Source: Candidatus Binatia bacterium
GTDB lineage: Bacteria; Desulfobacterota; Binatia; UBA9968; JAJDTQ01
Reading direction: 5' to 3'
Assembly: GCA_022823055.1 (NCBI GenBank)
Contig: JAJDXX010000168.1
Coordinates: 1-38,291 of the forward strand
Length of the DNA stretch: 38,291 nt
In this document: positions 4,539 to 35,653 of the stretch, in pieces
Layout of the letters: every line of letters starts with the position of its first letter
How positions within the stretch are numbered: the stretch's first letter is position 1
The notes under the pieces: generated by a model
The model's input: only the letters and a program-made list of their open reading frames with translations
The model's database searches: none
What the model was told of the DNA's origin: nothing
Position numbers and translations under genes: made by a program

Positions 4539-4715
4539 ATGACCGCAAGATCCTGCGGCGCGTGCGGGAAAACGGCTCTCCGGCCGGCCCTCGAAGCCGG
4601 CCTGATCGAAGTGACGCTCCCCGACAAACCAACCAGCCGGACACAGCGTTATCGGCGCACGTCCCCCGGCGAAGCCCTGGCGCGACAAGCCAGGTCCAAG
4701 GACTCCCGCGCATGA
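4539..4715 (+). pseudogene. Winged-helix C-terminal remnant of an AlbA_2/Fic-type ATP-binding regulator
   Basis: A 58-codon frame from ATG 4539 to TGA 4713-4715. Residues 12-45 (PALEAGLIEVTLPDKP and the SRTQRYRRT that follows) match, from memory, the C-terminal winged helix of Schlafen-AlbA_2-type ATP-binding or Fic-associated regulators, where this wing ends the protein. Everything before residue 12 is unlike the family and no ATP-binding domain precedes it, so I read it as a 3' gene fragment. The stop overlaps the hsdM start (ATGA at 4712-4715), so translating the fragment could feed hsdM. Such regulators often sit inside type I R-M loci, which fits an original regulator between S and M. 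The alternative is a chance small frame, but the wing motif is specific. Confidence 0.55.
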
Positions 4716-6205
4716 ACACCGCCCCCATCGTCTCCAAAGTCTGGAGCTTCTGCACCACCCTGCGTGACGACGGCGTCGGCTATGGCGACTACCTGGAACA
4801 GCTCACCTACCTGATCTTTCTCAAGATGGCGGACGAGTACGGGAAGCCGCCGCGCAATCGCGATGTGGGCATCCCGGTCGAGTACAACTGGACGAGTCTC
4901 AGGTCGAAGCGGGGCGCGGAACTGGAAAGCCACTACGTCACGTTGCTTCGCGAGCTGGGCGCCAAGACCGGCATGTTGGGGCAGATCTTCACCAAGGCCC
5001 AGAACAAGATCCAGGACCCGGCGAAGCTGTACCGCCTCATCGACATGGTAGACGCCACCGAGTGGGTCACCATGGTCGCCGACATCAAGGGTGACATCTA
5101 CGAGGGCCTGTTGGAGAAGAACGCCGAGGACACGAAGTCGGGCGCGGGGCAGTATTTCACGCCGCGCGCCCTCATCCGTGCCATGGTGGAATGCGTGCGG
5201 CCCGAACCCCGCAAGCTCATCGCCGACCCTGCCTGCGGCACGGGCGGGTTCTTTCTGGCGGCCTACGACTTCCTCACCAACCCGGACAACTTCAAACTGG
5301 ACCAGCAACAGAACGCGTTCCTGAAGCACGAGACCTTTCACGGCAACGAGATCGTCGCCAATACCCGGCGCCTGTGCCTGATGAACATGCTCCTCCACAA
5401 CATCGGCGAGATCGACGGCGGCGCGCCCATATCGCCCAACGACGCGTTGGTGGCCGATTCGGGGCAGCGGTTCGACTACGTGTTCGCGAACCCGCCTTTC
5501 GGCAAGAAGAGCTCCATGAGCTTCACCAACGAGGAAGGCGAGCAGGAGACGGACGACCTGACCTACAACCGGCAGGATTTCTGGGCCGCCACGTCCAACA
5601 AGCAACTCAATTTCGTGCAGCACATCCGGACCATGCTCAAGACCGACGGCCGCGCCGCCGTCGTGGTGCCGGACAACGTGTTGTTCGAGGGCGGCGCCGG
5701 CGAGACCATCCGGAAGAAGCTGCTGGACAACACGGACCTGCACACGATCCTCCGGCTTCCCACCGGCGTGTTCTACGCCCAGGGGGTCAAGGCCAACGTG
5801 ATCTTCTTCGACAACCGAGAAGCCAGCCCCGACCCGTGGACGAGACAGGTCTGGTACTACGACTACCGCACCAACATTCACCACACCCTCAAGAAGAAGC
5901 CCATGCGCTACGAGGACCTGTCGGATTTCGTGAAGTGCTACAATCCAAAGAACCGGCATCGGCGCAAGCCCACCTGGGATGAAAACGATGCGCCGGAAGG
6001 CTGTTGGCGCAGCTACAGCTACGACGAACTTACCGCGCGCGACAAGACCAGCCTCGACATCTTCTGGCTCAAGGACAAGAGCCTGACGGACCTCGACAAC
6101 CTGCCCGAACCCGACGACCTCGCCGAGGAGATTATCGAGAACCTCGAAGCGGGGCTGAACAGCTTTCGTGAAGTGCTGGCCGGTCTACGGCACTCGGATC
6201 GTTGA
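4712..6205 (+). CDS. hsdM: Type I restriction-modification DNA methyltransferase subunit M
   Basis: N6-adenine methyltransferase subunit that modifies the HsdS target using S-adenosylmethionine; 497 residues, normal for the family. The HsdM N-terminal helical domain (about 8-140) precedes the Rossmann methyltransferase. SAM motif I reads DPACGTGGFF (D172 onward) and catalytic motif IV is NPPF (260-263), the expected adenine-N6 signature. I chose ATG 4712 because MNTAPIVSKVW is the family N-terminus. The frame extends 50 codons further upstream, but that part is Pro/Arg-rich and unlike HsdM. ATG 4712 overlaps the stop of the preceding winged-helix fragment. hsdM lies about 1.2 kb downstream of hsdS, separated by the Rpn gene, whereas M and S are usually adjacent. 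All catalytic motifs look intact. Confidence 0.95.
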   Translation: MNTAPIVSKVWSFCTTLRDDGVGYGDYLEQLTYLIFLKMADEYGKPPRNRDVGIPVEYNWTSLRSKRGAELESHYVTLLRELGAKTGMLGQIFTKAQNKIQDPAKLYRLIDMVDATEWVTMVADIKGDIYEGLLEKNAEDTKSGAGQYFTPRALIRAMVECVRPEPRKLIADPACGTGGFFLAAYDFLTNPDNFKLDQQQNAFLKHETFHGNEIVANTRRLCLMNMLLHNIGEIDGGAPISPNDALVADSGQRFDYVFANPPFGKKSSMSFTNEEGEQETDDLTYNRQDFWAATSNKQLNFVQHIRTMLKTDGRAAVVVPDNVLFEGGAGETIRKKLLDNTDLHTILRLPTGVFYAQGVKANVIFFDNREASPDPWTRQVWYYDYRTNIHHTLKKKPMRYEDLSDFVKCYNPKNRHRRKPTWDENDAPEGCWRSYSYDELTARDKTSLDIFWLKDKSLTDLDNLPEPDDLAEEIIENLEAGLNSFREVLAGLRHSDR

Positions 6206-18741: not shown

Positions 18742-21396
18742 CTAGAACTCCTTCCGCAGGTAGGCCGAGACTCCGCTGTCCCGGTTTTCGCTCTCATGTT
18801 CCAGGCCGAAGGCGATTCGTGCGGTCCTTCCGACCGGCAGGCTGTAGCCCAGAGCGTAACGCGTCGTTGGCCGCGCGCTCAGGTCGATGACCGTCCGTTG
18901 CCGCTCGAGAGACTGAGGGCGCCCGCGGTAGAACGCATCCACAAAGCTGCTGCCGGTGGCAACAACGTGGCGGAAGCGGGCCTGCCCTCCGCGCACCCCC
19001 GCTTCCTGGCGGACAGCGAACCTCAGGAGATCGTCGTCACGGAACACGTTCCGCCCCTGGGTTCCCGCGGACCATCCATCCGCCCGCAGCCCGGACATGC
19101 CGGACAGCATGCCGCCTGTCACCGAAACCTCTCCGTAGCCGTGCTCGTAGCCGGCGAACCCGCGCCAGCGGCCGCCCAGCGGAGTCGACAGGAACAACCG
19201 GTTCTGGATCGTCCGGGTCCGGGTGCGCCCCAGCGCGCCGAAGTTCGCGCCCCAGACACTGCGGGGTTCTTCGACCCGCGAGACCTCCGCCACCGACAGG
19301 AAGCCGCCGCCCTCGTGACGCCACCGGAGGCCGAACTGGCGCCACGGCGCCCGGCCCGGCGTCCGCCCGCCGCTGACCGCGGCAAACGGCCGCAGGCCCC
19401 GGCCCTGCATCTGCATCGACACCGCCCTCCCCGCGTAGGCGAAGAAGGGGGCGGCGGCAGCGGCGCCCGCGGATTCGACCGTGCTCCACTCCCTCCACGC
19501 GGACCGCCCACAGCCGCCGCACAGGTCGTGGCGCAACCGCCAGCGGCCAAGCCCGTAGGCTCCGAAATCCATCCCCACAGCGTGAAGCTCGCCCGCGCCC
19601 AGGCCGGTCTCGGCGAACACGCGGTGAGTGTCGAAGCCGGCCTCCAGGCGCCGGCCGCTACCCTGGCCGAACATGTCGCCGGCGGCGTGGCCCAGCGCCC
19701 GAGGTCTTCCCGCCTCGATGGCGACCGCGTCGAAGAGCCTCGTGTTGTAGTACGCGTTGCCCACCCCGCCCACGGCGACCCGGACGCCCCGCAGCCGCTC
19801 ACCCACCTGCGCGAGGGCGGGCGACAGGGTGACGCGGACGTCCCGGAGCGGCGCCGCCTGCGCCGTTCCGGCCACGGAGAAGGGCAAGGCGACCGTCCCC
19901 TGCATGGCCACCGCCCGCCCCAGGTTGAGCCGTCCCCAGCCATAGACGGCGTCCGGCTCGTCGGGATTGCTCACCCGGCTCCCGAGCGGGTCCGCAGAGT
20001 ACAGCAGCACGGCCTGCACCACCGCCATCGGCATGCCGGGCAGCCGGCTCTTGAGCACAGCCAATGCGCCGCTCACCATCGGCGCGGCGAAAGAGGTGCC
20101 CGTGAGCGCCTCGTTGGGGCCGACCCTGAGATCCTCCCCGGGCGCGAACAGGCACCAGTTCCGCGCCTCGCCGCATCCGTTGGAGAACCTCGCGATCCCG
20201 CCGTTCCTGTCCAGCGCCCCCACGACCAGCCATTTCCCCAGCAGTCCGGGCTCGAACAACGGCGCCACCATCCATCCCCCGATGGAATTGTAGTCCGCGC
20301 AGTCGTCGCTCCCGCACTCCGTTCCCCACATGTCCTTGAAAGAGACCGCAGGGCCGCGCTCGTCGTCGTTCCGCAGCCAACTGAAGTTCTCCATGAACTC
20401 CTGGGCGGTGAAGGCAAGGTCGCCCAGCCGGCAGCCGTCCTCGCCGATGAAGTTCTTTCCGCACATGTGAACCCTGTTGTTGATGGAGTTCCAGCTCTCG
20501 TTGCCGGCCGCCCACACCGTCACCATGTCCCTGCCGGCGAGTGTTCTCGCCGCCTGGGCAAACTCGCCCCTGTCTCCCGTGAGGAAGCGGCCGACCAGAT
20601 CCAGGTTGAGGAGAGGCCGGAACAGGGGCTTCCCCACGGTCAGCCATACCCCGTCCCGGCCGGCGTACCTCCCGTAGTAATGCTGCGTTATCCCGATGCT
20701 GAAGTTCAGCACTTGCGCCCCGTTGGCGGCCGCGTGTTCCAGCGCCTGCAAGGGTTGCCCGCCGCCTGCGAGCTGTATCGGCATGACCTGTGCCCGCGGC
20801 GCAACGCCGTGGACGTTGTAGGTGGGAATGGCGCCGCCGCCGGCCGCTCTTATCTCGAAAGTCCCTCCGGCATTCTCCCTCGCCCCCGCGGCAAGCAAAG
20901 CGACATAGGTGCCGTGTCCTGTCCCGAGTTCATCCGCCCGCCCCGGTTCGAACACGTTGGCGTTTCGATTGCGCACGTGACGCGGCGCCCTGATCTTGCC
21001 CGCCAGGTCGGGGTGGGTCGGGTCCAGTCCGTCATCCGCCACCGCGATGGTCACGTCCTGGCCGAAATAGCCGCGCTCGTAGGCCTCATCCGCCGAGATG
21101 GCGTCCAGGCCGTGGTGGCCCCGGAACTCCCGGGTGCGGTAGTCGCGGCCATCGGGCGGGTTGGGGGCGCCCAGGGCGGTCGGGCGGAACGTGAGTTCAA
21201 CCGGGTTCGGGCTGGTAGGCGCCGGCGGGCCGTCGCGGGGCGGCCCCCCCGCGCTCTCGTTGGCGCCGCTGCAGGCGCCCGCGGCGAGCACGACACACGC
21301 CAACAGGAACAATCGGCCACCACGGGAACGCGCGGACCACGAGAGGGAATCCCTTCGGGCACCCTTGTGCTGCGCTCGAGTTTTCGGTTTGTTCAT
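18742..21396 (-). CDS. S8 (subtilisin) family serine peptidase with barrel-like C-terminus, lipoprotein
   Basis: An 884-residue exported peptidase. The N-terminus has a basic region, a hydrophobic stretch and the lipobox LAAGAC (C42), so it is probably lipid-anchored. The S8 domain spans about 95-480. The catalytic Asp is D121 in VADDGLDPTHPDL (the usual DS/TG reads DDG), His is H161 in GHGTYVALLAA and Ser is S435 in LTGTSFAAPMVSG. From about residue 560 to the end the sequence is strand-rich and aromatic and finishes in F (SAYLRKEF), resembling an autotransporter-type beta-barrel. I chose ATG 21396 because the signal sequence follows and GGAG lies upstream; an in-frame start further upstream adds only Gly/Ala-rich sequence. 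A lipobox together with a terminal barrel is unusual. Targets are unknown. Confidence 0.85.
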   Translation of the reverse strand: MNKPKTRAQHKGARRDSLSWSARSRGGRLFLLACVVLAAGACSGANESAGGPPRDGPPAPTSPNPVELTFRPTALGAPNPPDGRDYRTREFRGHHGLDAISADEAYERGYFGQDVTIAVADDGLDPTHPDLAGKIRAPRHVRNRNANVFEPGRADELGTGHGTYVALLAAGARENAGGTFEIRAAGGGAIPTYNVHGVAPRAQVMPIQLAGGGQPLQALEHAAANGAQVLNFSIGITQHYYGRYAGRDGVWLTVGKPLFRPLLNLDLVGRFLTGDRGEFAQAARTLAGRDMVTVWAAGNESWNSINNRVHMCGKNFIGEDGCRLGDLAFTAQEFMENFSWLRNDDERGPAVSFKDMWGTECGSDDCADYNSIGGWMVAPLFEPGLLGKWLVVGALDRNGGIARFSNGCGEARNWCLFAPGEDLRVGPNEALTGTSFAAPMVSGALAVLKSRLPGMPMAVVQAVLLYSADPLGSRVSNPDEPDAVYGWGRLNLGRAVAMQGTVALPFSVAGTAQAAPLRDVRVTLSPALAQVGERLRGVRVAVGGVGNAYYNTRLFDAVAIEAGRPRALGHAAGDMFGQGSGRRLEAGFDTHRVFAETGLGAGELHAVGMDFGAYGLGRWRLRHDLCGGCGRSAWREWSTVESAGAAAAAPFFAYAGRAVSMQMQGRGLRPFAAVSGGRTPGRAPWRQFGLRWRHEGGGFLSVAEVSRVEEPRSVWGANFGALGRTRTRTIQNRLFLSTPLGGRWRGFAGYEHGYGEVSVTGGMLSGMSGLRADGWSAGTQGRNVFRDDDLLRFAVRQEAGVRGGQARFRHVVATGSSFVDAFYRGRPQSLERQRTVIDLSARPTTRYALGYSLPVGRTARIAFGLEHESENRDSGVSAYLRKEF

Positions 21397-22695: not shown

Positions 22696-23304
22696 ATGAA
22701 GCCGAACAAACGCCTGGTCACCAAGCTGGGTCTATTCCGCCTCGCCGCGGTGGTTTTCGTTGCGGGGCTGGCCGCGTGCGACGGCAAGCCTTCCGGCGGG
22801 TCGGGCGAGTCGGTGGGGATACCCCCGGAACGCATGGCGGACGCGCTGTTCGCCGTCATGGCGGCCGACCGCACCGTCTACTCGAACGAGGTGGTCTATC
22901 GCCTGCAGGACGTGGAGGAGGTGGTCAAGGCCAGCGAGCACTGGGATAGCCAGAAGGCCTTGCCGCTGCCGGCCCAGATGTTCCGCATGGGCGCCGGGTT
23001 GGTGGCCAAGCAGACCGACGGGTTCAGCTACGCGCTGCTATCCAAGTGGCCCCTCAACAAGGCGAGCGTACCCAAGACCGATGTGGAAGTCGCCGGACTG
23101 GACAGCGTCGCCGAGAACCCATCGAAACCCTACTACGGGCGAGAGAAAATCGGCGATGTCGAGTATTTCACCGCGGTGTATGCCGACGTCGCCGTCTCGC
23201 CATCCTGCGTGACCTGTCACAACGCCCACGAGGACAGTCCACGGAACGACTTCAAGCAGGGAGACGTCATGGGCGGCATCGTCATCCGCATTCCCTTGCG
23301 CTGA
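22696..23304 (+). CDS. DUF3365 (Tll0287-like) heme-type lipoprotein
   Basis: A 202-residue lipoprotein with a signal sequence and lipobox GLAAC (C28). The mature part is a Tll0287-like/DUF3365 domain, a PAS-related fold that in characterised members binds c-type heme. The heme attachment motif CVTCH is at C171-C174-H175, near the C-terminus, followed by the family ending NDFKQGDVMGGIVIRIPL. Upstream features SKWPLNKA and NPSKPYYGREKIGDVEYFTAVYADVAV are also typical. I chose ATG 22696, which begins the signal peptide; earlier in-frame starts lack one. It would face the periplasm and may sense redox, gases or a small ligand. It lies 128 bases upstream of the ammonium transporter in the same direction and may be cotranscribed with it. 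Confidence 0.88.
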   Translation: MKPNKRLVTKLGLFRLAAVVFVAGLAACDGKPSGGSGESVGIPPERMADALFAVMAADRTVYSNEVVYRLQDVEEVVKASEHWDSQKALPLPAQMFRMGAGLVAKQTDGFSYALLSKWPLNKASVPKTDVEVAGLDSVAENPSKPYYGREKIGDVEYFTAVYADVAVSPSCVTCHNAHEDSPRNDFKQGDVMGGIVIRIPLR

Positions 23305-23432
23305 CGATGCGGACGGCGCAGAGGGACCGGGGACCTCGGATCGGCTATGCGCGTGGGCGTTGATGGTAACGTCTTCGATTCGTGAGCGTATCGCCAAAGA
23401 AGAACCAACCGGGCGAGATCGGAGGAGTATCC

Positions 23433-24812
23433 ATGCCGAGACGCTTGCGTACAGTCGCTGCCCTGGCGCTCGCAATGATGCTGTTTCCCGCCATCGCGTA
23501 TGCGCTGGACGGGAGGGTCGACGGCAGGCCGGTATCCGAAGTGCGGGTCGTGGTCGATACCATGTGGACCACCATGGCCGGCTTCCTGGTGTTCCTGATG
23601 CAGGCGGGCTTCGCCATGGTGGAGGGCGGGTTCACCCGCGCCAAGAATGTCGTCAATATCATGATGAAGAACATCGGGGACTTCTCCATGGCCTCCCTGG
23701 GCTTCTGGATACTGGGCTTCGGCATCATGTTCGGCAGCGGCAACGCCTTCCTGGGAACCACGGGCTTCTTCGTTCTGCCGGACACGGGCGACCTGTACCC
23801 CCCTCTCGGCACGACCTCGGTTCCGACCTTGACGGCGTGGTTCTTTCAGTTGATGTTCTGCGCCACGGCGGCGACCATCGTTTCCGGCGCCATGGCCGAG
23901 CGCACGAAATTCGTGAGCTTTCTTATCTTCAGCTTCTTTGTCTCGCTGGTGTTCTATCCGATGGTGGGGCACTGGATATGGGGCGGCGGATGGCTTTCGG
24001 CATTGGGCATGCAGGACTTTGCCGGGGCCACCGTCGTGCATTCCACCGGCGGGTGGTTCGCCTTGGCGGGCGTGATCGTGCTTGGACCGAGGCTCGGCAA
24101 ATATGACGAGTTGGGGAGACCCCAGGCCTTGCCGGGTCACAACCTGATGCTGGCCACGCTCGGGGCCTTGATCCTCTGGTTCGGCTGGTTCGGCTTCAAC
24201 ACCGGAAGCATCATGGGCGCCCGAGTGAGCGACATGGCGCTGATCGCGGCAAACACCAGTCTTGCGGCGGCCGCGAGCGCCGCCGGCGCCACGGTGACGG
24301 CGTGGGTGATGTTTTCCAAGCCTGACCTCACAATGACCCTGAACGGCGCACTCGCCGGTCTCGTGGCGATAACGGGCGCATGCGCTTTCGTGGAACCCTG
24401 GGCCGCAATCCTGTTCTTCGGCTTCATGCCGGGAGTCGTCGTGGTCCTCTCCGTGCTGGCGTTCGATTGGATTCAGATCGACGATCCGGTGGGAGCCATA
24501 TCCGTCCATGGCGTGTCGGGTGCGTTGGGGACGGTGCTGTTGGGACTGTTTCACGTGGAGTCCGGGCTGTTCTACGGCGGCGGCATCAGCTTGCTCTGGG
24601 CCCAGGTGGTGGGGGTGGTATCCGTTTTCGCTTTCTGCATGGTGTCCGGTCTGGTGTTGTTCAACGTCATCAAGAGCGTGGTTGGCTTGCGCGTGTCGCC
24701 GGAAGGGGAGATCGCCGGTCTGGACGCGACGGAACACGGGAACGACGGCTATCCGGAGTTCGGCATCCCGGATGCCGTGTTCCAGGAACGCCGTCCGCAG
24801 TCCGGGTCGTGA
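23433..24812 (+). CDS. amt: Ammonium transporter (Amt/MEP/Rh family)
   Basis: Inner-membrane ammonium channel of 459 residues with about eleven membrane segments after a cleavable N-terminal signal (AMMLFPAIAYA). Family signatures are visible: MQAGFAMVEGGFTRAKN in the first segments, DFAGATVVHSTGGWFALAG (D and the first pore His region), WFGWFGFNTGS, and DDPVGAISVHGVSGALGT with the second pore His. GGAGGA at 23421-23426 sets ATG 23433; a start 17 codons upstream is less likely. The C-terminal tail (LRVSPEGEIAGLDATEHGNDGYPEFG) is the conserved cytosolic part contacted by PII proteins. No glnK gene is adjacent, unlike the usual amtB-glnK pair. The neighbour is a heme-type lipoprotein. Confidence 0.96.
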   Translation: MPRRLRTVAALALAMMLFPAIAYALDGRVDGRPVSEVRVVVDTMWTTMAGFLVFLMQAGFAMVEGGFTRAKNVVNIMMKNIGDFSMASLGFWILGFGIMFGSGNAFLGTTGFFVLPDTGDLYPPLGTTSVPTLTAWFFQLMFCATAATIVSGAMAERTKFVSFLIFSFFVSLVFYPMVGHWIWGGGWLSALGMQDFAGATVVHSTGGWFALAGVIVLGPRLGKYDELGRPQALPGHNLMLATLGALILWFGWFGFNTGSIMGARVSDMALIAANTSLAAAASAAGATVTAWVMFSKPDLTMTLNGALAGLVAITGACAFVEPWAAILFFGFMPGVVVVLSVLAFDWIQIDDPVGAISVHGVSGALGTVLLGLFHVESGLFYGGGISLLWAQVVGVVSVFAFCMVSGLVLFNVIKSVVGLRVSPEGEIAGLDATEHGNDGYPEFGIPDAVFQERRPQSGS

Positions 24813-24998: not shown

Positions 24999-26342
24999 AT
25001 GAACGAATGCGCCTCCATTCTGGCGATCGGCGATGTTCACCTCGGCGCGCCCTGCTCGGGTGTGCCCCGCGGCATTTCCGCGTGGGGAGTGGATCTCGGA
25101 GAACTCACGCCCGTTGCGGCACTCCGGCGATCTGTTGATTTCGCGATCCAGCAGCACGTCGACGCGGTCCTGTTCGCCGGTGATGTGGTTGAGAGCGTCA
25201 ATGCCAGATTTGAGGCAATGCTGCCGCTCGAAGAAGGCGTCCGGCAACTGCTGGAAGCGGGAATCGAGGTTATCGCCGTTGCCGGCAACCATGATGTCGA
25301 AGCGTTGCCGCGGCTTGCGGCCGTGATCGACGGGTTCACCCTGTTGGGCGCCGGCGGTCGGTGGGAAGCGAGAATGATATCGAAGGACCGGTCTCCGGTT
25401 GCCCAGGTGGTCGGATGGTCTTTCGATGACAGGTTCGTGCGCCAGAGTCCGGTGGCGGGACTGCCCAGGGAACCCCTCGAGGCGCCGTCGCGTGCTGTTC
25501 CCAGGATTGGTCTGCTGCACGCGGATCTGGACGCTCCCGGCGGACACTACGCGCCCATCCGACGGGCCGAGGTTGACGATGCCGGCTACGACGCCTGGCT
25601 CCTGGGCCATGTCCACCAGCCTTCGCTTGAGACGTCATCCACGGCCACGGAAAGCCGTCCCTGCGGCTATCTCGGTTCGCTCGTCGGACTCGACCCGTCG
25701 GAACCGGGCCCGCATGGTCCCTGGCTCCTTACGGTAGGCAATGATGGACGCATGGACCTCAGGCAGGTTCCCCTTGCGCCCCTGCGATGGGAGGAGGTGT
25801 CCGTGTCGGTGGAAGGGCTCCATCACGTCGAGGAAGTGCCTGACAGATTGATAAGGGAAGCGGAGAGAGTCGTCCACCGACTCGGCGAACACTCCATCCT
25901 TCCCCGAGCCCTCGGCCTGCGCGTGCAGCTCACGGGGACAAGCGCCGGCTATGAAGGGGTCCGGCGGTGGATTTCCGACGGCGAGTGGAACGCCATGGGG
26001 CGTAACGTCGATGGCACGGCCGTCTTCTTTAGCGAGATCGTCGACTCGATGGACCTGCCGCTGGACCTCGCCGAGATCGCGTCTGGAGACGATCCCGCGG
26101 CCCTGATGGCGCAACGGCTGCTGATGCTCATGCACGACGACGCCCGATCAAGGGCGCTGCTGGAGGATGCCCGTGCCGCCTTGAGCGAGACCGCCGGAGA
26201 GGACGTCTGGCTGCCGGTTCAAGATCATCGCAACGCCCCGGACCCCCTGTCGGACCATGCCCTCCGCGATGTTCTTCTGCGTTCAGGGAAGGCGGCATTG
26301 AGCGCCATGCTCACGGGCTGCGAGGAGAGCAATCCATCGTGA
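24999..26342 (+). CDS. SbcD/YhaO-like metallophosphoesterase
   Basis: Calcineurin-like phosphoesterase, 447 residues, of the DNA-repair exonuclease (SbcD/Mre11, YhaO) type. Metal ligands are in GDVHLG (D12, H14), AGDVVE (D62), GNHD (N97, H98) and GHVH (H204, H206), all intact. The C-terminal third (after about 260) resembles the capping and partner-binding part of YhaO. Proteins of this type act as Mn-dependent nucleases driven by an SbcC/Rad50-type ATPase. The stop overlaps the start of exactly such an ATPase (GTGA at 26339-26342), so the two are translated together and very likely form one complex. ATG 24999 is preceded only by a weak AGGT. Role in repair or in defence against foreign DNA is not decided by the sequence. 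Confidence 0.9.
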   Translation: MNECASILAIGDVHLGAPCSGVPRGISAWGVDLGELTPVAALRRSVDFAIQQHVDAVLFAGDVVESVNARFEAMLPLEEGVRQLLEAGIEVIAVAGNHDVEALPRLAAVIDGFTLLGAGGRWEARMISKDRSPVAQVVGWSFDDRFVRQSPVAGLPREPLEAPSRAVPRIGLLHADLDAPGGHYAPIRRAEVDDAGYDAWLLGHVHQPSLETSSTATESRPCGYLGSLVGLDPSEPGPHGPWLLTVGNDGRMDLRQVPLAPLRWEEVSVSVEGLHHVEEVPDRLIREAERVVHRLGEHSILPRALGLRVQLTGTSAGYEGVRRWISDGEWNAMGRNVDGTAVFFSEIVDSMDLPLDLAEIASGDDPAALMAQRLLMLMHDDARSRALLEDARAALSETAGEDVWLPVQDHRNAPDPLSDHALRDVLLRSGKAALSAMLTGCEESNPS

Positions 26343-29300
26343 AACTGCTGCGGCTTGTCGTAGGCCGGCTCCCGGGAATAGGCCGACCTTTTGAAATCGA
26401 AGCGGCGGGAGCGGGCTTCCACGTCGTATTCGGTCCGAACGGTATCGGCAAGTCGAGCATCTGTCGGGCGGTGGAGGGATTGTACTGGGAGGATCGCGGC
26501 CCCACGCGGTTGACGTCGGTTGTCGGCGAATTCGAACTGGACGGAGAAACTTGGCGGGGCGAGCGCGAAGGGGCGCGTATCCGATGGCAAGACGGCGACG
26601 GCCGGAATGTTTCTCCGAATTTGCCGCCGTCCTACAGCTCCCGCTGTTTCTTTCTGAACCTCCGCTCTCTGATGGATCCGTCGCGGGACGGCACCGCCGA
26701 CATCGCCTCGGAAATACGGCGGCAGATGTCCGGCGGATTCGATCTGGAAAAGATCGCCTCGGGCCTGTTCGCCACCGTGACCACCCAGCGTGGCCGCCGC
26801 GAGCGGAATGACTTCAACAAGGCGGCGGAAGACGTCGAGGAGTTGGCCGGAAGGCACAACGACCTCCAGCGGCGCGCGGATGAGCTTGAAGAACTGAAGT
26901 CGCAACTCCGTGACGCAGAGACCGCCACCCGGCGGCTCGCTCTTGTCGAACGCGCAATAGGACTTGCGCGCCGCCGGGAGGAGCTTGCCGCCATCGTCGA
27001 GAGAATCAGGGCCTTGCCCGGCGCCTTGGCGAACCTGACCGGCAAGGAGGTGGAGGAGGTCGAGCGCCAGCAGGCTCAGGTGGACAGGTTGGCCGAACGG
27101 GCCCGTTCCCTGGAACGAGAGTTGGCCGAAGCGCGCGAGGCGAGGCGGAAGTCCGGGCTTGCCAGCCCCCTGGAGCAGGCCGATCTCGCGGCTTGGCGCG
27201 AAAACGCGGGTGAATTGGAACGCGTCGAAGTGGCGCTCGCGGCGGCAAGGAGCGAACGCGACGTTTCCCGCAGCAGACTTGCGGCGGCATCGCACGCGAT
27301 GGGTGGCGGCGGTGCCGACAACGTCGCGCTGACCTTGCCGGAACAGAGCGAGCTGTTCGAGTTCCTTCGGTCGAGCCAAGCACACGAGATCCGGGTCGGC
27401 ACCGTCCGGGAAAGACTGAATCTACTCGAATACGTCGATGCGCCAAGCGGCGGTCGGCGGGATGTCGACACGCTCCGGGAGGCGGCGGAGGCCCTGCGTT
27501 CGTGGCTGCGCGTATCCGAGCCGGACAACCCGGCGATCAGGGCGCGCGCACGGTGGGCTTGGCTCGTTTCGGCCCTCGCCATGCTTTCGGCAAGCGTCGT
27601 ACTGGCGGTGCTCGTCGATCCGTCGCTGATCCAGCTCGCGGCCGCGGGTGTCGCGCTCGCCCTGCCGGTCGTGGTCTTGGGCAATCGAAGCGCCTCGAGA
27701 GCCGCACGAAACGCCGCAAGATCGGCATTCGAAAGGCTGTGTCTTGAAGAGCCCGACGAGTGGGAGATTTCATCGGTGGAATCACGGTTGCACAGTCTGG
27801 AAGGCGAGACCGTAGATGTCCTGGCCTCCGTGCAGCGCACGCGTGACCGTGCCGTGGAACGACAAGCGCTCGAAAGCGAAATGGAGGGCTTGGCGGAACA
27901 GCGGGGTGCCCTTGATGCGCGCAGAAAGGAGCTTCAGGGAAGGCTCGGCCTGGATACGCTTCCGCAGGATGCGGAGCTCGTGGATTTCGCGCGGGCGCTT
28001 GATCAACTCCGCATGGCCCGGGGCGACGACGAGGCCGCCGCGGGCAAGGCGGGCGGCCTCGAAGAGCGTCAGGCCACCCTCGTGGCGGAGTTGGCGGGTG
28101 TTCTGGAACATTACGGCGAACCGCGGCCGACGAGCGCCGCAACGGCCCGGGCGCGTCTCAACAGTCTAGCGGACAGAAACTCGCTGCTGGTGCGGGCGCT
28201 CTCGGACGAAAGGGCACTGACGGCCCAGCTCGAGGAAATTTCCGCCGCCCGTGAAGGGGCTGCCGGTTCCATCAGAACGATCTACTCGGAGGCGGCACTG
28301 GAGGAAGGCGACCTGAGCGGCCTCGTTCGGCTGCTCGGCTCATTGCAGCGCTACCGTGAACTGAACAGCGAAAGGACAAGCCTGGAGGGCCAGATCGGCC
28401 TCGATTGCGCGGAGCTGAAGAAAGCCGGCGAACCCGAACTGGCCGAATGCGACGGTCTGTCCCTGGTCCCGCTCAAGGAGAGTCTGACGAGCCTGGCGAC
28501 GAAGGCGACCGCACTGAGAAGCGAGATCGCCGGGACCGCTGCCCGGATCGATGAGGCGAAGAGGAGCAACGCCATGCGGGACCTCATCGGCGTTCGCGAG
28601 GAAGCCCGCGCCAGGTTGCGGAATCTCCGTGACGAGGCGTTTCACGCCAAGGCGGGGAGATATCTCATGGACGCCGTAAGAGGGGAGTACGAGCAGAGCC
28701 GGATGCCCCGGGTCCTCGAACGCGCCCGCGAGCTTTTTTCCGGGTTCACCTATCATGGCTATGAACTTCGCTTGGCCAAGGACGAAGAGACGCCCCGTCT
28801 CGTTGCCGTTGAGTTGCGTAGCGGAGAGGCGCGCGAACTCGATGAGCTCTCGGACGGTACGCGCGCCCAGTTGCTGTTGGCGGCGCGAATCGCGTTTGCC
28901 GAGCAGGTGGAGCGGGGAATGGTGCTGCCGCTGTTTCTCGACGAAGCGCTCGACCAGAGCGATCCCAGGCGATTCGAAGCCATGGTGCGAAGCATCGGGC
29001 GCGTCGGAAGAGAACAGGACCGCCAGATCTTTTACTTCACCAGCGATCCGCTTGATGTCGACCGGATTCGCCATGCGCTCGGGAAGGAGGATTGCGACAT
29101 CGCCGCTGCCATCGACCTGGGCCGGATACGAACGAACGTGGACAGCGCGGGCGGGTCGCGCGCGCTGAGCATTGATCCGGGGCCGACGGTTCCGGCGCCC
29201 GACGGGCGGTCCCCGGAGGAGTATGGTGCGGTCATCGGCGTGCCGGCGTTCCTTCCGGCGCTCGGCCATGCCGAACAGCATTTCTTCTACGTTCTGTGGG

Positions 29301-29839
29301 ACGATCTGGACCTGGTGCACGACCTTCTGTCGAACGGTATCGAGCGTGTGGGCCAGTGGAAGACGGTTTCGGGCACTCCGCTTGCCGATAGGCTCGGTTC
29401 CCGTTCGGTGACTCCGTCGGAAACCTCGTTGCGGTTGGACCTTCTCGAGGTCTTTTGCGGGTTGTGGAAACAGGGAAGGGGCCGGACTGTGGACCGCGAC
29501 GCCCTCGAAGAGAGCGGCGCCCTCACCGGGCGGCTCCTCGAAGATGTGGCGTCCATTGCCCGAGAACTCCATGGCGACGCGAAGCGGCTTGTCGCTGCGC
29601 TCGGGGAGAACAGGGAACCGCGTCTGCGGAGTCTTCGGAGAAGCAGCGTCGAGAGGCTCAGGCGTCATCTGATCGAATACGGCTATCTCGACGAACGCCC
29701 CGTTCTCGCCGAGGGCGAACTGCGGCTCCGGGCACTGACCAGCCCGGCGGCGAACGGACTACCCGGCACGGTGGCGAGCGGCTGCCTCAAGCGTTGGTGG
29801 GAATGGGCCCGGAAATCTTCCGAGCCCGAGCTTCGATAA
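26339..29839 (+). CDS. SbcC/YhaN-like AAA ATPase with membrane hairpin and C-terminal extension
   Basis: A 1166-residue SMC/Rad50-like ATPase. Walker A is GPNGIGKSS (32-40), Walker B with catalytic Glu is LPLFLDEALDQSD (D868, E869), and the signature region reads DELSDGTRAQLLLAARIA. Long coiled-coil arms lie at about 155-400 and 455-830. In the middle, where Rad50 would have a zinc hook, two hydrophobic segments (about 406-427 and 434-452) form a likely membrane hairpin, as in YhaN. After the ATPase (from about 910) comes an extension of roughly 250 residues not found in SbcC or YhaN as far as I know (VIGVPAFLPALGHAEQHFFY, then helices rich in Leu/Arg). Translation starts at GTG 26339, inside the stop of the phosphoesterase gene. 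Confidence 0.9.
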   Translation: MKLLRLVVGRLPGIGRPFEIEAAGAGFHVVFGPNGIGKSSICRAVEGLYWEDRGPTRLTSVVGEFELDGETWRGEREGARIRWQDGDGRNVSPNLPPSYSSRCFFLNLRSLMDPSRDGTADIASEIRRQMSGGFDLEKIASGLFATVTTQRGRRERNDFNKAAEDVEELAGRHNDLQRRADELEELKSQLRDAETATRRLALVERAIGLARRREELAAIVERIRALPGALANLTGKEVEEVERQQAQVDRLAERARSLERELAEAREARRKSGLASPLEQADLAAWRENAGELERVEVALAAARSERDVSRSRLAAASHAMGGGGADNVALTLPEQSELFEFLRSSQAHEIRVGTVRERLNLLEYVDAPSGGRRDVDTLREAAEALRSWLRVSEPDNPAIRARARWAWLVSALAMLSASVVLAVLVDPSLIQLAAAGVALALPVVVLGNRSASRAARNAARSAFERLCLEEPDEWEISSVESRLHSLEGETVDVLASVQRTRDRAVERQALESEMEGLAEQRGALDARRKELQGRLGLDTLPQDAELVDFARALDQLRMARGDDEAAAGKAGGLEERQATLVAELAGVLEHYGEPRPTSAATARARLNSLADRNSLLVRALSDERALTAQLEEISAAREGAAGSIRTIYSEAALEEGDLSGLVRLLGSLQRYRELNSERTSLEGQIGLDCAELKKAGEPELAECDGLSLVPLKESLTSLATKATALRSEIAGTAARIDEAKRSNAMRDLIGVREEARARLRNLRDEAFHAKAGRYLMDAVRGEYEQSRMPRVLERARELFSGFTYHGYELRLAKDEETPRLVAVELRSGEARELDELSDGTRAQLLLAARIAFAEQVERGMVLPLFLDEALDQSDPRRFEAMVRSIGRVGREQDRQIFYFTSDPLDVDRIRHALGKEDCDIAAAIDLGRIRTNVDSAGGSRALSIDPGPTVPAPDGRSPEEYGAVIGVPAFLPALGHAEQHFFYVLWDDLDLVHDLLSNGIERVGQWKTVSGTPLADRLGSRSVTPSETSLRLDLLEVFCGLWKQGRGRTVDRDALEESGALTGRLLEDVASIARELHGDAKRLVAALGENREPRLRSLRRSSVERLRRHLIEYGYLDERPVLAEGELRLRALTSPAANGLPGTVASGCLKRWWEWARKSSEPELR

Positions 29840-30548: not shown

Positions 30549-32681
30549 ATGGAACGCCAAGGGATGGGCCATAACGAACGACGGGACGGACTCGATTCGC
30601 CCGAAGGCGCAACCGCCCCTGCGCCGGATGAAGCGAACCGCGGGGAGACGGAAGCGGGCGGGGTTTCCGAGCCTGTGGATCAACCTTGGTGGGATGGCGG
30701 GCCGAGGGACGAAGAGGCGGACGGCGACAGATCCCGTGACGCGGGGGTTGCGCAGCAGGCAACCCTGGCCGAGTCTCGCAAACACAGGCCGGGGGGATAC
30801 ATGTACAGAGGGGTGATGTACGGCGGCGTGGCGCCGGAGCCGGGAGCGGGAGCGGCGGAGGCCGGCGACGAGCCGCCGGACGATGCCGTGCTCGCCGTCA
30901 TGTCGGAGGAGCAAGCGGGCGGTCCTGCCGTCGAAGAAGATGCGCCGCCGGCCATGGATTCTCCGTGGTGGCAGGAAGCTGCGCCGCTCGGGGATGCCGC
31001 CGGGCAGGGACTTGGCGAGGGCGGTGACCAGGAAGAACCTCCTGCGCCCGCGGCGTCCATGCCGGCGGAGTACGGCGGCGCGGCGCCGGAGCCGGGAGCG
31101 GGAGCGGCGGAGGCCGGCGACGAGCCGCCGGACGATGCCGTGCTCGCCGTCATGTCGGAGGAGCAAGCGGGCGGTCCTGCCGTCGAAGAAGATGCGCTCC
31201 CGGCCATGGATTCTCCATGGTGGCAGGAAGCTGCGCGGCTCGGGGATGCCGCCGGACAGGGATTTGGCGAGGGCGGTAACGAGGAAGAACCTCCTGCGCC
31301 CGCGGCGTCGGAGCCCGGAGCGGGAGCGGCGGAGGCCGGCGACGAGCCGCCGGACGATGCCGTGCTCGCCGTCATGCCGCCGAAGCCGGCGGATGGTCCC
31401 GTCACCGAGGAAGAGGCGCAGGTGCCGCCGGCCGTGGATCCTCCATGGTGGCAGAAAGCTGCGCGGCTCGGGGATGCCGCCGGGCAGGGGCTTGGCGAGG
31501 GCGGTGACGAGGAAGAACGCGAGCTGCAGAATCGGGTGCATCCGGCTTCGCCGCCCGGTTTGTCGCAAGCGGCGGAAGGGCTGGCCGAGGTTCCGTCCAT
31601 CGATCCGATTCGGTCCATCGTGGCCGAGGTCTGTCCCGACGGGCTGTTGCTGGTCGAGAAGGTTGAGGCTCCACTGCCGGAGTGGGCCCATGCCGCCGTG
31701 ACCGCAGCGCGGAACGACCTGGCCCGGCGTTCGGCGGAACGCCGGGCGGTGGATGCCGACGAGTATCTTCAACTGGCCATCGTTGAACACATCTTGGGCC
31801 TTCACGAGGACGCGGACGGTCACCTCAAGGAGGCGCTGCCGCACAGCGAGCGGTTCGGGCCTGTCTTGAACGCGCTGGCCGTCACGAACCTGGCGCGCGG
31901 GAAGATCGCTCCGGCCATCGTCTACTGCAAGGAGGCTCTCCGCGAAACCGACGGGGACGACGCCGTCCGCGCGGCCGCATCTTCCAACTTGGGAGATCTT
32001 TACCGTCTTCAGGGAAACGCCTCCCAGGCGGCCGAGGCGTACGAGGCGGCCATCCGCTGCGCGGGATCTCATGGGGACGACCCCCGGCTGCCGCGGCTGC
32101 ATTTTCATGCCGGGTCCCTCTACCGGCACTTGGGAGAAGCGGACAAGGCGCGCGCCCACCTCTCCGAATCCGTCCGCCTGTTCGGGGACGCGGGTGACGA
32201 ACCGGGGCACATCCGCGCCCTCGGAACGCTGGGCCTGGCGTTGAACGACGCAGGCCTCCACGACCTCGCCTTGAGGAGCTTCGAAGAAGGGGTGCGGATT
32301 TGTCTGCGGACCGGGGACAAGCCCGGGGCCGCGTTGGTGCAGGACGGCATGGGCGTGGTCTACATGTCTCAGGGGCAGTTGACACGCGCTCTCGCGTATC
32401 TGGAGAGCGCCCTGTCGCTGTACCGGGAGTTGGACGACCGCGAGGGCGAGGCAGCCACCCGCCGCAACATAGCGGAAATCCATCAATTCCGGGGCGAGAC
32501 GGACCCCGGTCAAGCGGGCGAACCCGCGCCGCGCCGGCCGGAGTCCGGAGACCCGGAGGGAGCCCCCCGCAGGGCTCTGGAGGCAGAGGAAATTCTCAGG
32601 CGCGCCGGGTCGGCGGAGTTGCAGGAGAAGCGCGAAGCGGGTGATCCGAATGCCCGGGTCGAGAACGCGCGTCGCGGGTGA
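30549..32681 (+). CDS. TPR protein with acidic Pro/Gly repeats and four PWW motifs
   Basis: A 710-residue protein of unknown function. Residues 1-340 are acidic, disordered-looking Pro/Gly/Ala/Glu sequence with PWW motifs at 46, 139, 223 and 299. The last three lie in near-identical units of 84 and 74 residues. Residues about 385-650 are tetratricopeptide repeats (AVTNLARGKIAPAIVYCKEAL, ASSNLGDLYRLQGNASQAAE, LGTLGLALNDAGLHDLALRS and others), a protein-binding solenoid. No signal peptide or membrane segment is visible. GGAGGT at 30538-30543 places ATG 30549 well. It is followed 59 bases later by a Cache-HAMP receptor. The PWW units could be repeated docking sites for a partner, with the TPR part as adaptor, but this is inference. 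Confidence 0.85.
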   Translation: MERQGMGHNERRDGLDSPEGATAPAPDEANRGETEAGGVSEPVDQPWWDGGPRDEEADGDRSRDAGVAQQATLAESRKHRPGGYMYRGVMYGGVAPEPGAGAAEAGDEPPDDAVLAVMSEEQAGGPAVEEDAPPAMDSPWWQEAAPLGDAAGQGLGEGGDQEEPPAPAASMPAEYGGAAPEPGAGAAEAGDEPPDDAVLAVMSEEQAGGPAVEEDALPAMDSPWWQEAARLGDAAGQGFGEGGNEEEPPAPAASEPGAGAAEAGDEPPDDAVLAVMPPKPADGPVTEEEAQVPPAVDPPWWQKAARLGDAAGQGLGEGGDEEERELQNRVHPASPPGLSQAAEGLAEVPSIDPIRSIVAEVCPDGLLLVEKVEAPLPEWAHAAVTAARNDLARRSAERRAVDADEYLQLAIVEHILGLHEDADGHLKEALPHSERFGPVLNALAVTNLARGKIAPAIVYCKEALRETDGDDAVRAAASSNLGDLYRLQGNASQAAEAYEAAIRCAGSHGDDPRLPRLHFHAGSLYRHLGEADKARAHLSESVRLFGDAGDEPGHIRALGTLGLALNDAGLHDLALRSFEEGVRICLRTGDKPGAALVQDGMGVVYMSQGQLTRALAYLESALSLYRELDDREGEAATRRNIAEIHQFRGETDPGQAGEPAPRRPESGDPEGAPRRALEAEEILRRAGSAELQEKREAGDPNARVENARRG
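30831..31520 (+). repeat. Three in-frame direct repeats (252 and 222 bp period)
   Basis: Units start near 30831, 31083 and 31305 (anchor AGGCCGGCGA at 30859, 31111 and 31333). They are nearly identical at nucleotide level, including third codon positions, so duplication was recent or is kept uniform by recombination. Each unit carries DEPPDDAVLAVM, a PWW motif and GDAAGQGLGEGG. The periods are multiples of three, so the frame is kept. Confidence 0.9.
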
Positions 32682-32695
32682 CGGCAAAGAGCCGC

Positions 32696-32712
32696 GGGAG
32701 AAGCGTTTTCCC
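32696..32712 (+). terminator. Weak hairpin after TPR gene
   Basis: GGGAGAA-GCG-TTTTCCC forms a 7-pair stem with one G-T pair and a 3-base loop, followed by GGTTTGAC. It could attenuate transcription between the TPR and receptor genes. It is a weak terminator at best. Confidence 0.3.
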
Positions 32713-32740
32713 GGTTTGACAAACAAGAGGGCATCCTCCA

Positions 32741-34210
32741 ATGACTCATTCGCTTGGTGTTCGTTTCGGGTTGGCCGTGTTCCTTCTTGTGTGGGTTCCG
32801 TTGCTGGCAGTGACGGGATGGGGAGCATACTGGTTGTGGCTGCGGACGGAGGGCCGCCCGTCGCCCGCCCTTGAGTCGCTGGCGTTGCGTGGCGACGCAC
32901 TGAAGCTCACCGAGGCGGCCTCGGGTCTTGCGGAAACGATCGACAGGTTCATGCTCGACCGCATCGTCGAGGTGCGGACCTGGGCGTCGTCGCCGGTGGT
33001 GGTGGCGGCGGTGAAGAAGGCGCGAGCCGCCCACGCCAAGGAGGGGCTGGACAACCTCGCCGTACAGCAGATCGAGGGGAAGTTCCGGGTCCGGAAGAGC
33101 ATGGGGGTCGCGCCCGCGGCGCGCACGTACCTGAGCGAACAGATCAGGATGTCCCCTCACTTTGCGGAGGTATTCTTCACGGACAACTTGGGCTTCAATG
33201 TGGCGCTGACGAACCCGACCTCGGACTTCGTCCAGTCCGACGAGGATTGGTGGCAGCGGGCGTGGTCGGCAGGGGTTTCCGTTGGCGAGATAGAGTTCGA
33301 CTCCTCGGCCAACGTATGGGCGCTGGCCCTCTCGGTGCGCATTCATGACTCCGGAGCCGGGACTCCGATCGGCGTGATGAAGGCGGTTCTGTCCGTCCGC
33401 TTCGTGCAGTTGTTCGCCGACCGCGTGGCGCGTCGTCTGTCCGCCCCCGGGCACCTGCTGCATGCCCAACTTTCCGATTCGGCGCGTGACGGCCGCGCGC
33501 TCGGGTCGCAGTTCCTGGTGGTGACCCGCAACGGGTTGCTGGTCGCGGAGACGCGCTCCGCGCACGCTCGCGGGCGGATCATGCAGCCGGACATCAACCT
33601 GCGCACGGATGACTCGCTGACTCACTTGAACCTGTCCTATGAGGGCGACCAGTCCGGAGCGTTCATCGCCACGCGGAACGGACTTCAGAACAGCCCGGAC
33701 GGCCCCTTGGCACCGAGTACGCTTGTCGCTTTCGCGCGTTCGGCGAGTACGGGATTCTACGAGCCGGTGGTGGAGAACTTCTCCGGTTTCGACTGGATGA
33801 TCATCGTGGAGGCGCCGAATCTGACCGGTCACAGCAACCTGCCGGAGCTCGTCGGGACACAGTGGCAGGAGCAACAGGGCTGGATCGGGGACGTGCTGTG
33901 GGTCGGCGTGGCGCTGTGCGTGGCGCTGCTGCTGTCCTCGATCCTGCTCTGCTGGCTGTTCGGGCGGTGGGTGCTGGTGCCGGTGCGCGCGTTGACCAGT
34001 CGCGTGCAACGCATGGAGCAGGGGCATATCAGCGGCAAGATCGACGTGCCGTCGAAGGGCGAGGTTGCGGAACTGGCGGAGGCCCTCGATCGCGTACGTT
34101 ACATGGTCACCAAGATGGCCGATCGGCTGCGCCAGACGTCGTCCGCGAAGGCGCAGACGACGACGCCCGCGGACGCAGCGGCCCGGCGCCCCGCGACCGA
34201 GGACACCTAG
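32741..34210 (+). CDS. Cache-HAMP membrane receptor lacking an output domain
   Basis: A 489-residue sensor-like protein. One membrane segment (about 9-31) is followed by a long periplasmic region (about 35-380) with double-Cache features: HFAEVFFTDNLGFNVALTNP, DWWQRAWSAGVSVGEIEFD and FSGFDWMIIVEAP. A second membrane segment lies at about 381-406, then a HAMP domain (LVPVRALTSRVQRMEQGHIS to AEALDRVRYMVTKMADRL, ending near 458). The chain ends after a short Pro/Ala-rich tail. Normal relatives continue into a kinase, methyl-accepting, cyclase or PP2C phosphatase domain, and none is present. The missing part could be encoded separately or lost. The ligand is unknown. GAGGG precedes ATG 32741. It is in a run of same-direction genes with a truncated STAS protein further on. 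Confidence 0.88.
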   Translation: MTHSLGVRFGLAVFLLVWVPLLAVTGWGAYWLWLRTEGRPSPALESLALRGDALKLTEAASGLAETIDRFMLDRIVEVRTWASSPVVVAAVKKARAAHAKEGLDNLAVQQIEGKFRVRKSMGVAPAARTYLSEQIRMSPHFAEVFFTDNLGFNVALTNPTSDFVQSDEDWWQRAWSAGVSVGEIEFDSSANVWALALSVRIHDSGAGTPIGVMKAVLSVRFVQLFADRVARRLSAPGHLLHAQLSDSARDGRALGSQFLVVTRNGLLVAETRSAHARGRIMQPDINLRTDDSLTHLNLSYEGDQSGAFIATRNGLQNSPDGPLAPSTLVAFARSASTGFYEPVVENFSGFDWMIIVEAPNLTGHSNLPELVGTQWQEQQGWIGDVLWVGVALCVALLLSSILLCWLFGRWVLVPVRALTSRVQRMEQGHISGKIDVPSKGEVAELAEALDRVRYMVTKMADRLRQTSSAKAQTTTPADAAARRPATEDT

Positions 34211-34273
34211 CCTCGGGAGTCTGCGCGCCGCAGGCAAAGAAGTTGCCGCAGGTGCGTGGATGAAGGGTGTGGA

Positions 34274-35653
34274 ATGGGGCCGGACAACAAGAAGCTTCCC
34301 CGGCCGTTGCGCCTGACGGCCGCAACGGCCTGCCTCGCGCTGTCTCTGGGCGCCTGCGCCGGTTTGCCGGAGGGAAGGCGCGGGGAGCGGCTCGGAGCCG
34401 CGGAAAAACAGCAGTTGGACAGCAGTCTGAAGGTGGCGTCGGCGTCGGCCGATGCCGGTCAGCTCGAGGCCGCGGAGCGGCTTTATTCGCAACTCTCGCG
34501 CCACTATCCGGACGCGCCGGAGCCCAGACTCGGCCTCGGCTACCTGGCGTTGCAGGCCGGTGATTTCGCGCTCGCCGGCAAGCTTTTCGCCGAGGCCGAC
34601 GAGAGGGCAACGGCGCCGGCGGCCAAGGCCGAGGCGTTGCTCGGCGCGGGGCGGACGAGCCTCGGAACAGGAGACATCGCCGCGGCGAAGCGCCGTCTCC
34701 TCGCCGCCTCCAAGCTGGCCGAGGGCACCGCGGCCGAAGCGTGGGTGGCCAACGGGCTCGGCGTGGTGGCGACGCTGGAGGGCGACCACGCGCGGGCTCG
34801 GATGCTCTACGACCGGGCTCTCGAGCTGTCGCCGTCGCATCCGATGATCACCGCGAATCTGGTGCGTTCGCTTGCTCAGTCGGGCGCGACGGGCGAGGCC
34901 AGGGAGTTCTACGCCAGGTACGCCGCCTCCCACTGGCTGGACGGCGACAAGGCGGACCTTTCACGTCTGCTCAAGACTGCGAAGGGAGCCGTGGCGGCTT
35001 CCGCATCGGGCGCCCAGGTGCAGCTCTACTCGGCGCGTTCGCGGGACGGAGCGGTTGCCGCCTGGAGCCACCTTTCCTCCGAGGAAAAGGACCTGCTCGG
35101 CTCTCTCGAGCACCGCGTGGTGAAGGTCGAGATTCCCAAGCGCGGGACGTTCTACCGCCTGTGGGCGGGCCCCCTGGCGGACAAAACGGCCGCCAGGCGG
35201 CTGTGCGGGCAGTTGAAGGCGCGCGGCCGGGACTGCTTCGTCCGCGCGGAGAAGTGGGCAGGAGGCGCCGGGCCGGCCGGGGAAGAGGGTTCCGCCGGGG
35301 CCGCGCCTTCCGCGCCCCTCGCTCCCGCGGCGCCGGTGGTCGACGCGGCCTCACCGGGCGCCCTGGTGCAGCTCCACTCCGCGCGTTCGCGGGACGGGGC
35401 GCTGGCCGCCTGGAGCCTCCTCTCCTCCGGGGAGGAGGACCTGCTCGGCTCTCTCGAGCACCGCGTGGTGAGGGCCGAGATTCCCAAGCGCGGGGTGTTC
35501 TACCGCCTGTGGGCAGGCCCCCTGGCGGACAAGGCGGCCGCCAGGCGGCTGTGCGGGCAGTTGAAGGCGCGCGGCCGGGACTGCCTCGTCCGCGCTGGAA
35601 AATGGCCGGCGGCGGGCGCCCCCGGTGCAACCCCGCCAAACGGAGCGGAGTGA
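34274..35653 (+). CDS. TadD-like TPR lipoprotein with two SPOR domains
   Basis: A 459-residue lipoprotein (signal with lipobox LSLGAC). Residues about 40-230 are TPR repeats (LEAAERLYSQLSRHYPDAPE, GDFALAGKLFAEADE, GDHARARMLYDRALELSPSH), as in the Tad-pilus assembly lipoprotein TadD. Two SPOR domains follow (about 248-330 and 364-446), a peptidoglycan-binding fold recognised by VQLYSARSRDGAVAAW, EIPKRGTFYRLWAGPLADK and LCGQLKARGRDC. The two copies are nearly identical and separated by a Pro/Ala linker. Start ATG 34274 follows AAGGG; a GTG six codons earlier is possible. It is probably anchored in the outer membrane and bound to septal or denuded peptidoglycan. cpaA starts 13 bases after its stop, which supports a pilus-assembly role. 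Confidence 0.87.
   Translation: MGPDNKKLPRPLRLTAATACLALSLGACAGLPEGRRGERLGAAEKQQLDSSLKVASASADAGQLEAAERLYSQLSRHYPDAPEPRLGLGYLALQAGDFALAGKLFAEADERATAPAAKAEALLGAGRTSLGTGDIAAAKRRLLAASKLAEGTAAEAWVANGLGVVATLEGDHARARMLYDRALELSPSHPMITANLVRSLAQSGATGEAREFYARYAASHWLDGDKADLSRLLKTAKGAVAASASGAQVQLYSARSRDGAVAAWSHLSSEEKDLLGSLEHRVVKVEIPKRGTFYRLWAGPLADKTAARRLCGQLKARGRDCFVRAEKWAGGAGPAGEEGSAGAAPSAPLAPAAPVVDAASPGALVQLHSARSRDGALAAWSLLSSGEEDLLGSLEHRVVRAEIPKRGVFYRLWAGPLADKAAARRLCGQLKARGRDCLVRAGKWPAAGAPGATPPNGAE
35015..35608 (+). repeat. Recent tandem duplication of SPOR domain
   Basis: Bases 35015-35260 recur at 35363-35608 with a period of 348 bases (116 codons). Stretches such as that from GACCTGCTCGGCTCTCTCGA to CACCGCGTGGTG are identical, including silent positions. 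The linker between copies is not duplicated. Confidence 0.9.

Follow-up and report, generated by a model that had tools for sequence, protein, structure and literature searches.

The window, by which we mean the whole 38,291-nt stretch of DNA analyzed here (contig JAJDXX010000168.1 of a Candidatus Binatia bacterium), carries a pair of overlapping genes encoding a Mre11/SbcD/YhaO-like metallophosphoesterase and a YhaN/Rad50-like coiled-coil ATPase, with the following features (position, strand, identity).

24999..26342, +, Mre11/SbcD/YhaO-like metallophosphoesterase, 447 aa, predicted nuclease subunit (Pfam Metallophos, 1.7e-10)
25029..25046, +, metal motif I, GDVHLG, residues 11-16
25176..25193, +, metal motif II, AGDVVE, residues 60-65
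25281..25298, +, metal motif III, AGNHDV, residues 95-100
25512..25529, +, metal motif IV, LLHADL, residues 172-177
25602..25619, +, metal motif V, LGHVHQ, residues 202-207
26339..26342, +, 4-bp GTGA overlap of the phosphoesterase and ATPase genes
26339..29839, +, YhaN/Rad50-like coiled-coil ATPase, 1166 aa (AAA_27, 9.5e-05)
26432..26455, +, Walker A, GPNGIGKS, residues 32-39
27548..27691, +, hydrophobic hairpin of two predicted membrane segments with basic flanks and a short acidic loop, residues 404-451
28847..28864, +, ABC signature, LSDGTR, residues 837-842
28928..28945, +, Walker B, PLFLDE, residues 864-869
29021..29053, +, H-loop region, RQIFYFTSDPL, residues 895-905, His replaced by Asp
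29054..29836, +, C-terminal extension, residues 906-1166, a predicted helical domain without known relatives, kept family-wide

An earlier note on this DNA had described two open reading frames overlapping by four bases, and both were confirmed (24999-26342 and 26339-29839): the ATPase gene has a GTG start codon, and the four shared bases, GTGA, end in the TGA stop codon of the phosphoesterase gene. Nearly every bacterial or haloarchaeal pair seen had a 4-bp overlap; in Halorussus it was 8 bp. All five metal motifs, a feature of SbcD/Mre11, are intact in the phosphoesterase, as the note had held for its metal ligands, and they are intact in the family members displayed other than G063. The phosphoesterase matched the NCBIfam sbcd model at 1.6e-08, below the cut-off, and scored 34.6 bits with TIGR00619 (SbcD), the curated cut-off of which (77.65) was not reached; a full-length model of the ATPase, with a low pTM (0.33), matched SMC/Rad50 structures. 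The motifs and the pair structure support the assignment to a Mre11/Rad50-like pair, and a chance origin can be set aside because full-length homologs score 400-2150 bits and dN/dS is low. Measured against the nearest ortholog (L018), dN/dS was ~0.24 for both the phosphoesterase and the ATPase gene and 0.30 within the extension, indicating that both genes and the extension are under purifying selection. The Mre11-like partner in G063 (L029, 8195-9973), which stands beside an intact ATPase and extension, has lost the motif I His (GDMLIG) and reads GERD at GNHD, and is predicted to be a nuclease-dead member. A relative from G003 (L024, 7846-11346; 75% identity) contains two stop codons within the ATPase gene; this copy is either decaying or affected by sequencing error.

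In ABC-type ATPases, the H-loop His normally supports ATP hydrolysis. Of the 12 ordinary YhaN-like proteins compared, 11 have this residue (in FTCHP or similar, after the last core strand); it is missing from all 23 family members, which read FTSDP, LTSNP, FTAQG, FTARS, LAASD and variants at the site. The Walker A and Walker B motifs, correctly reported as kept in the window protein (GPNGIGKS and PLFLDE), are invariant among the members where covered, the catalytic Glu included, and the Walker B Asp-Glu is invariant across the family; the ABC signature (LSDGTR) of the window protein is intact as well. Because the H-loop His is lost, the ATP cycle of the family may be slow or regulated differently, and hydrolysis may be weak or absent. 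With the H-loop His missing, the earlier expectation that an active complex is likely becomes less certain where ATP hydrolysis is concerned.

Alignments of ordinary YhaN-like proteins of the same phylum to the ATPase stop at about residue 905-915, and these proteins end 18-38 residues past the column of residue 905, whereas family relatives carry 241-270 further residues past the H-loop that can be aligned along their whole length. Identity within the extension ranges from 22 to 86% among relatives, and this conservation, together with the purifying selection, ruled out an assembly artifact or read-through. In every relative found, the extension matches the ATPase core in conservation (mean distance between the bacterial and haloarchaeal groups, 0.73 for the extension and 0.75 for the core), and it was never found without the ATPase in 148 genomes of the class. 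The core, the extension and the phosphoesterase appear to have co-evolved, because their distance matrices correlate with an r of 0.99 across 19 pairs, a value reached in 0 of 2000 permutations. The HMM and structure-based searches proposed in the note were run, and they bear out its description of ~250 extra residues with no match: the extension (~906-1166) is real, had no match among Pfam, PHROG or solved-structure families, and did not match the C-terminus of YhaN or SbcC. Specifically, Pfam gave no match to the extension; Pfam and PHROG scans of single members gave scattered weak matches, none of them reproducible across members; and a sequence search of solved structures with a 20-member extension profile found nothing convincing (best E, 0.061). 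The AlphaFold2 model of the extension, based on 14 sequences, is helical (mean pLDDT 83.8, pTM 0.68), and comparison of this model with PDB chains gave no fold match with E <1, a second-look structure comparison gave a best Z of 4.1 over 76 residues, and viral models gave no match. A known domain was rejected on these grounds; for a helical model this lack of matches is weak evidence that the fold is new, and a known fold may have been missed. A weak extension match in G872 (4.7e-07) lies within an apparently glutamate-cysteine-ligase-like ORF and was set aside as chance. Inspected by eye, the stretch DLVHDLLSNGIERVGQWKTV of the extension looks like a helix-hairpin element, which we record as a lead only.

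YhaN is known for a membrane hairpin, and the earlier note had placed a double membrane segment where a zinc hook would be (about residues 406-452). Our prediction agrees, with a hairpin at residues 404-451, and no CxxC zinc hook, a feature of SbcC/Rad50, was found in the 11 members examined. Full-length relatives have a hydrophobic stretch at the homologous place: all bacterial members show two hydrophobic segments at the same position, joined by a loop of nearly none to 28 residues, and haloarchaeal members keep the stretch, with only one segment clear by a two-window test in the closest group. Bacterial hairpins contain 1-4 Lys/Arg residues before, 3-5 after and 0-2 within the loop, and because Lys/Arg is richer on both flanks than in the loop, a cytoplasmic location of both coiled-coil arms would fit. 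The topology prediction thus yielded a conserved hairpin with basic flanks, but hydropathy alone is less telling, the 19-residue maximum being 2.4 compared with an average of ~1.7 and values of up to 2.8 for composition-shuffled proteins; membrane anchoring is predicted more from the conserved position than from the height of the hydropathy.

The pair resembles YhaO/YhaN in that a phosphoesterase gene lies directly upstream of a long coiled-coil ATPase gene, in its similar head, and in an AAA_27 (PF13514) match just over the cut-off (22.5 versus 22 bits), which is short and confined to residues 16-50. Unlike ordinary YhaN-like proteins, most of which have a Walker B ending in DD, mostly retain the H-loop His and end soon after the H-loop, the family has a Walker B ending in DE, no H-loop His and a 250-aa helical extension, and it forms a separate clade with full support, the outgroup branches being long. 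Since the H-loop His loss and the extension mark the family off, and the pair fails two features of ordinary YhaO/YhaN (the H-loop His and a short C-terminus), we place it, on its sequences, as a divergent branch beside YhaO/YhaN; the note's view of it as the strongest candidate for a new system is to be tempered accordingly, as it is not a wholly new one. With SbcCD/Mre11-Rad50 it shares the metal and Walker motifs and the coiled-coil ATPase with a phosphoesterase partner, and it differs from them in having no CxxC zinc hook, in falling below the sbcC/sbcD cut-offs, and in possessing the hairpin and the extension. Mre11/Rad50 fusion proteins occur in Mimivirus, plasmids and scattered organisms, with a sporadic plasmid/viral distribution (PMC3175470). 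The present pair is likewise a second Mre11/Rad50-like machine that is sporadic and found on plasmids, but the fusions are single proteins, while here there are two genes with a 4-bp overlap and one Halorussus copy that reads fused. In that copy, the second on its Halorussus plasmid (L064, 8648-13486), the phosphoesterase and ATPase form one fused 1285-aa ORF and the extension is a separate annotated ORF after it, a split that is probably a frameshift. SMC-like ATPases in immunity, Lamassu and Wadjet included, have been reviewed (PMC10586767). Like these, the pair joins a coiled-coil ABC ATPase with a nuclease. The coiled coil and head of the haloarchaeal member weakly matched LmuB and JetC, and the PADLOC LmuB model matched the window ATPase at 2.2e-05 over just 29 residues. 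It differs from them in that no LmuC-, JetA- or JetB-like partner was recognized, in having a phosphoesterase in place of their effectors and in its membrane hairpin, and the Lamassu arrangement (LmuB with an LmuC partner and an LmuA effector) was not found in the window. The open-access literature yielded no paper devoted to YhaO/YhaN-type pairs and none on a pair of the present kind.

The window's genome contains three copies of the pair, all with the extension, the other two showing 61-62% identity to the window copy. The pair is carried by 6 of the 9 genomes of the genus and, in the class, by 8 of 145 relatives (whole-protein search) or 8 of 148 genomes (extension profile), the carriers being the six genus genomes and two other genera. 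Named relatives comprise MAGs of Deltaproteobacteria bacterium (APA_bin_73, RHO3_bin_65), Candidatus Binatia and Wenzhouxiangella. No further carriers appeared in a phylum sample of 395 genomes; one Wenzhouxiangella carries the pair, and 398 genomes of its phylum contained none besides this seed and one chance match. The genus tree has three supported clades that are older than the species, and because each is present in more than one genome, the copies appear to be old paralogs. The three copies in one MAG could include a binning error (contamination is 2.95%), yet G002, G003 and G008 hold two copies each. The note had allowed that the pair might always occur as ordinary housekeeping genes; with 6/9 genomes in the genus and 8/148 in the class this was not so, and the distribution marks the pair as accessory and apparently mobile.

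A particularly clean comparison was provided by site B of the window's genome (contig C106, locus L023), where an aminotransferase-like gene and a conserved gene of 450 aa flank a copy of the pair. This site is empty in G004 (one contig, 98% complete) and in G006: the 5.2 kb between the matching flanks is reduced to ~0.2 and ~0.1 kb, the pair alone is absent, and the flanking genes are adjacent. G001 also lacks the pair, and the second site B neighbor was not found beside its aminotransferase gene. The difference is either a gain or a loss, the comparison being silent on direction. Because site B differs by two genes alone, the functional unit appears to need no third local gene, and a linked third gene, also considered, was not supported there. 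The ammonium transporter gene, used as a landmark for comparing the site of the window copy, had no match in six genus mates at a strict threshold applied without a positive control.

Such a pair might be a DNA-repair nuclease, a membrane-anchored branch that replaces a missing SbcCD and trims hairpins, blocked ends and broken forks. The sbcC and sbcD models had no match above cut-off in the window's genome (TIGR00618, SbcC, did not match the window ATPase at E 0.1 and matched nothing in the genome above cut-off), and sbcD had none in the genus or order; elsewhere in the class it was above cut-off in 25 of 145 relatives. These absences, the intact nuclease motifs, the purifying selection and the several maintained paralogs would all suit a repair enzyme. 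However, the near-complete genus mates G001 (4 contigs) and G004 (one contig) have neither the pair nor SbcD, nor does the rest of the order, and because of these two genomes the pair does not appear to be required as an SbcCD replacement; one would not, moreover, expect such a substitute to appear and disappear as an insert of two genes or to ride archaeal plasmids. We consider repair the foremost alternative and, on balance, unlikely.

Full-length pairs with the extension were also found on haloarchaeal plasmids, where copies from Haloarculaceae and Natrialbaceae are 87-93% identical; because this identity spans families, recent horizontal transfer among these plasmids is indicated. The Halobacteria were searched through a plasmid collection alone, and the plasmid location is thus partly a sampling effect. 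A viral origin was rejected, since four viral-contig scans and phage records contained no pair. Around the haloarchaeal pairs lie genes of replication (NrS-1 polymerase domain, primase, orc1/cdc6), helicase and nuclease genes, a gene annotated as a CRISPR ring nuclease and one for a TmtA-like protein; such contexts suggest mobile, conflict-rich surroundings without proving defence. Replication genes are as frequent beside these pairs as defence-like ones. Three plasmids (L052, 1550-7347; L061, 2762-8556; L062, 2921-8556) share an upstream gene pair, of which one gene encodes a large ATPase-like protein that weakly matches HerA DUF87 and the other a protein of 562 aa carrying an NrS-1 polymerase helix-bundle domain. 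This arrangement, the primase and orc1/cdc6 genes beside other copies, and the plasmid location itself would accord with a pair that serves the mobile elements carrying it, by processing replication or recombination intermediates or by removing rival plasmids, the bacterial copies having descended from such elements. We judge this improbable in view of the sampling effect and of the bacterial copies, which are kept under selection with no adjoining replication genes.

Bacterial contexts vary between copies and are mostly metabolic. PADLOC, which has no model covering the pair, recognized among 83 bacterial neighbors a DNA methyltransferase (L031), Fic proteins and a few others, all scattered; matches to AbiEi/AbiEii, mad3 and PDC-M66B were counted overall and not assigned to single genes, and a Fic-type gene is also present in a genome with an empty site B. 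The neighborhood survey that the note had suggested thus brought out an accessory two-gene unit but no conserved defence partner beside it. Within the window the pair is not followed by a further gene of the unit, the next predicted gene starting 0.7 kb downstream. The pair is flanked there (22696-24812 and 30549-35653) by ammonium transporter, Tll0287-like, TPR, Cache/HAMP and SPOR genes, which recur in altered order near copies L022 and L031 and are possibly an accessory block of their own. Elsewhere in the window, type I restriction-modification genes occupy positions 1-6205: the final part of an EcoEI-like R subunit, truncated where the window begins, is accompanied by a specificity subunit (2350-3495) and an N6 methyltransferase (4712-6205), with a piece of a YhgA-like transposase (3855-4517) between these two. 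A large subtilase-family peptidase is encoded on the minus strand at 18742-21396 in a GC-rich stretch, where the opposite strand has an open frame of the same length.

A structural or signaling membrane complex that does little nuclease or ATPase work, its phosphoesterase being a binding subunit in some lineages, would account for the loss of the H-loop His in 23/23 members and for the G063 phosphoesterase devoid of the motif I His and GNHD, but is very unlikely given the intact metal motifs of the other members displayed and the Walker A/B motifs and catalytic Glu that are invariant where covered.

The reading we prefer is that the two proteins would form one complex, with Mre11-like phosphoesterases bound to the heads of two coiled-coil ATPases whose coiled-coil tips are anchored in the cytoplasmic membrane by the hydrophobic hairpin and not joined by a zinc hook. 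The heads would bind DNA ends or unusual DNA near the membrane, ATP binding would open or close access to the metal site, and the phosphoesterase would cut the DNA. The helical C-terminal domain, placed directly after the H-loop, would bind DNA or a partner and regulate the heads, a regulatory role that would fit the loss of the H-loop His. The DNA target would be incoming phage, plasmid or conjugated DNA, the least certain step of the scheme, and the pair as a whole would be an optional module for protection that passes from one genome or plasmid to another. Points against this scheme are that PADLOC has no model for the pair, that phage records and viral contigs lack it, that its bacterial neighbors are mostly metabolic with scattered defence matches, one of which (Fic) persists where the pair is missing, that haloarchaeal pairs adjoin replication genes as often as defence-like ones, and that the H-loop His is gone and the G063 relative has lost two metal motifs. 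We hold the complex and its mobility to be very probable. That the pair is a self-contained, membrane-anchored DNA-end-processing nuclease, as predicted from its sequences, is in our estimate an even proposition, and an anti-invader role falls slightly short of that, although distribution alone somewhat favors action on invading DNA over repair. The full proposal, a new two-gene, cross-domain anti-invader system in which an anchored nuclease would combine a C-terminal recognition domain of its own with an altered ATPase cycle, and which would have spread horizontally among bacteria and haloarchaeal plasmids, is put forward tentatively.

YhaO/YhaN-type pairs seem barely studied, and the branch described here is a small, testable system that offers a clean two-gene insertion site, paralogs, a lost switch residue and a conserved extra domain. 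It opens the questions of why a Mre11/Rad50 machine should be at the membrane and whether foreign DNA is its target.
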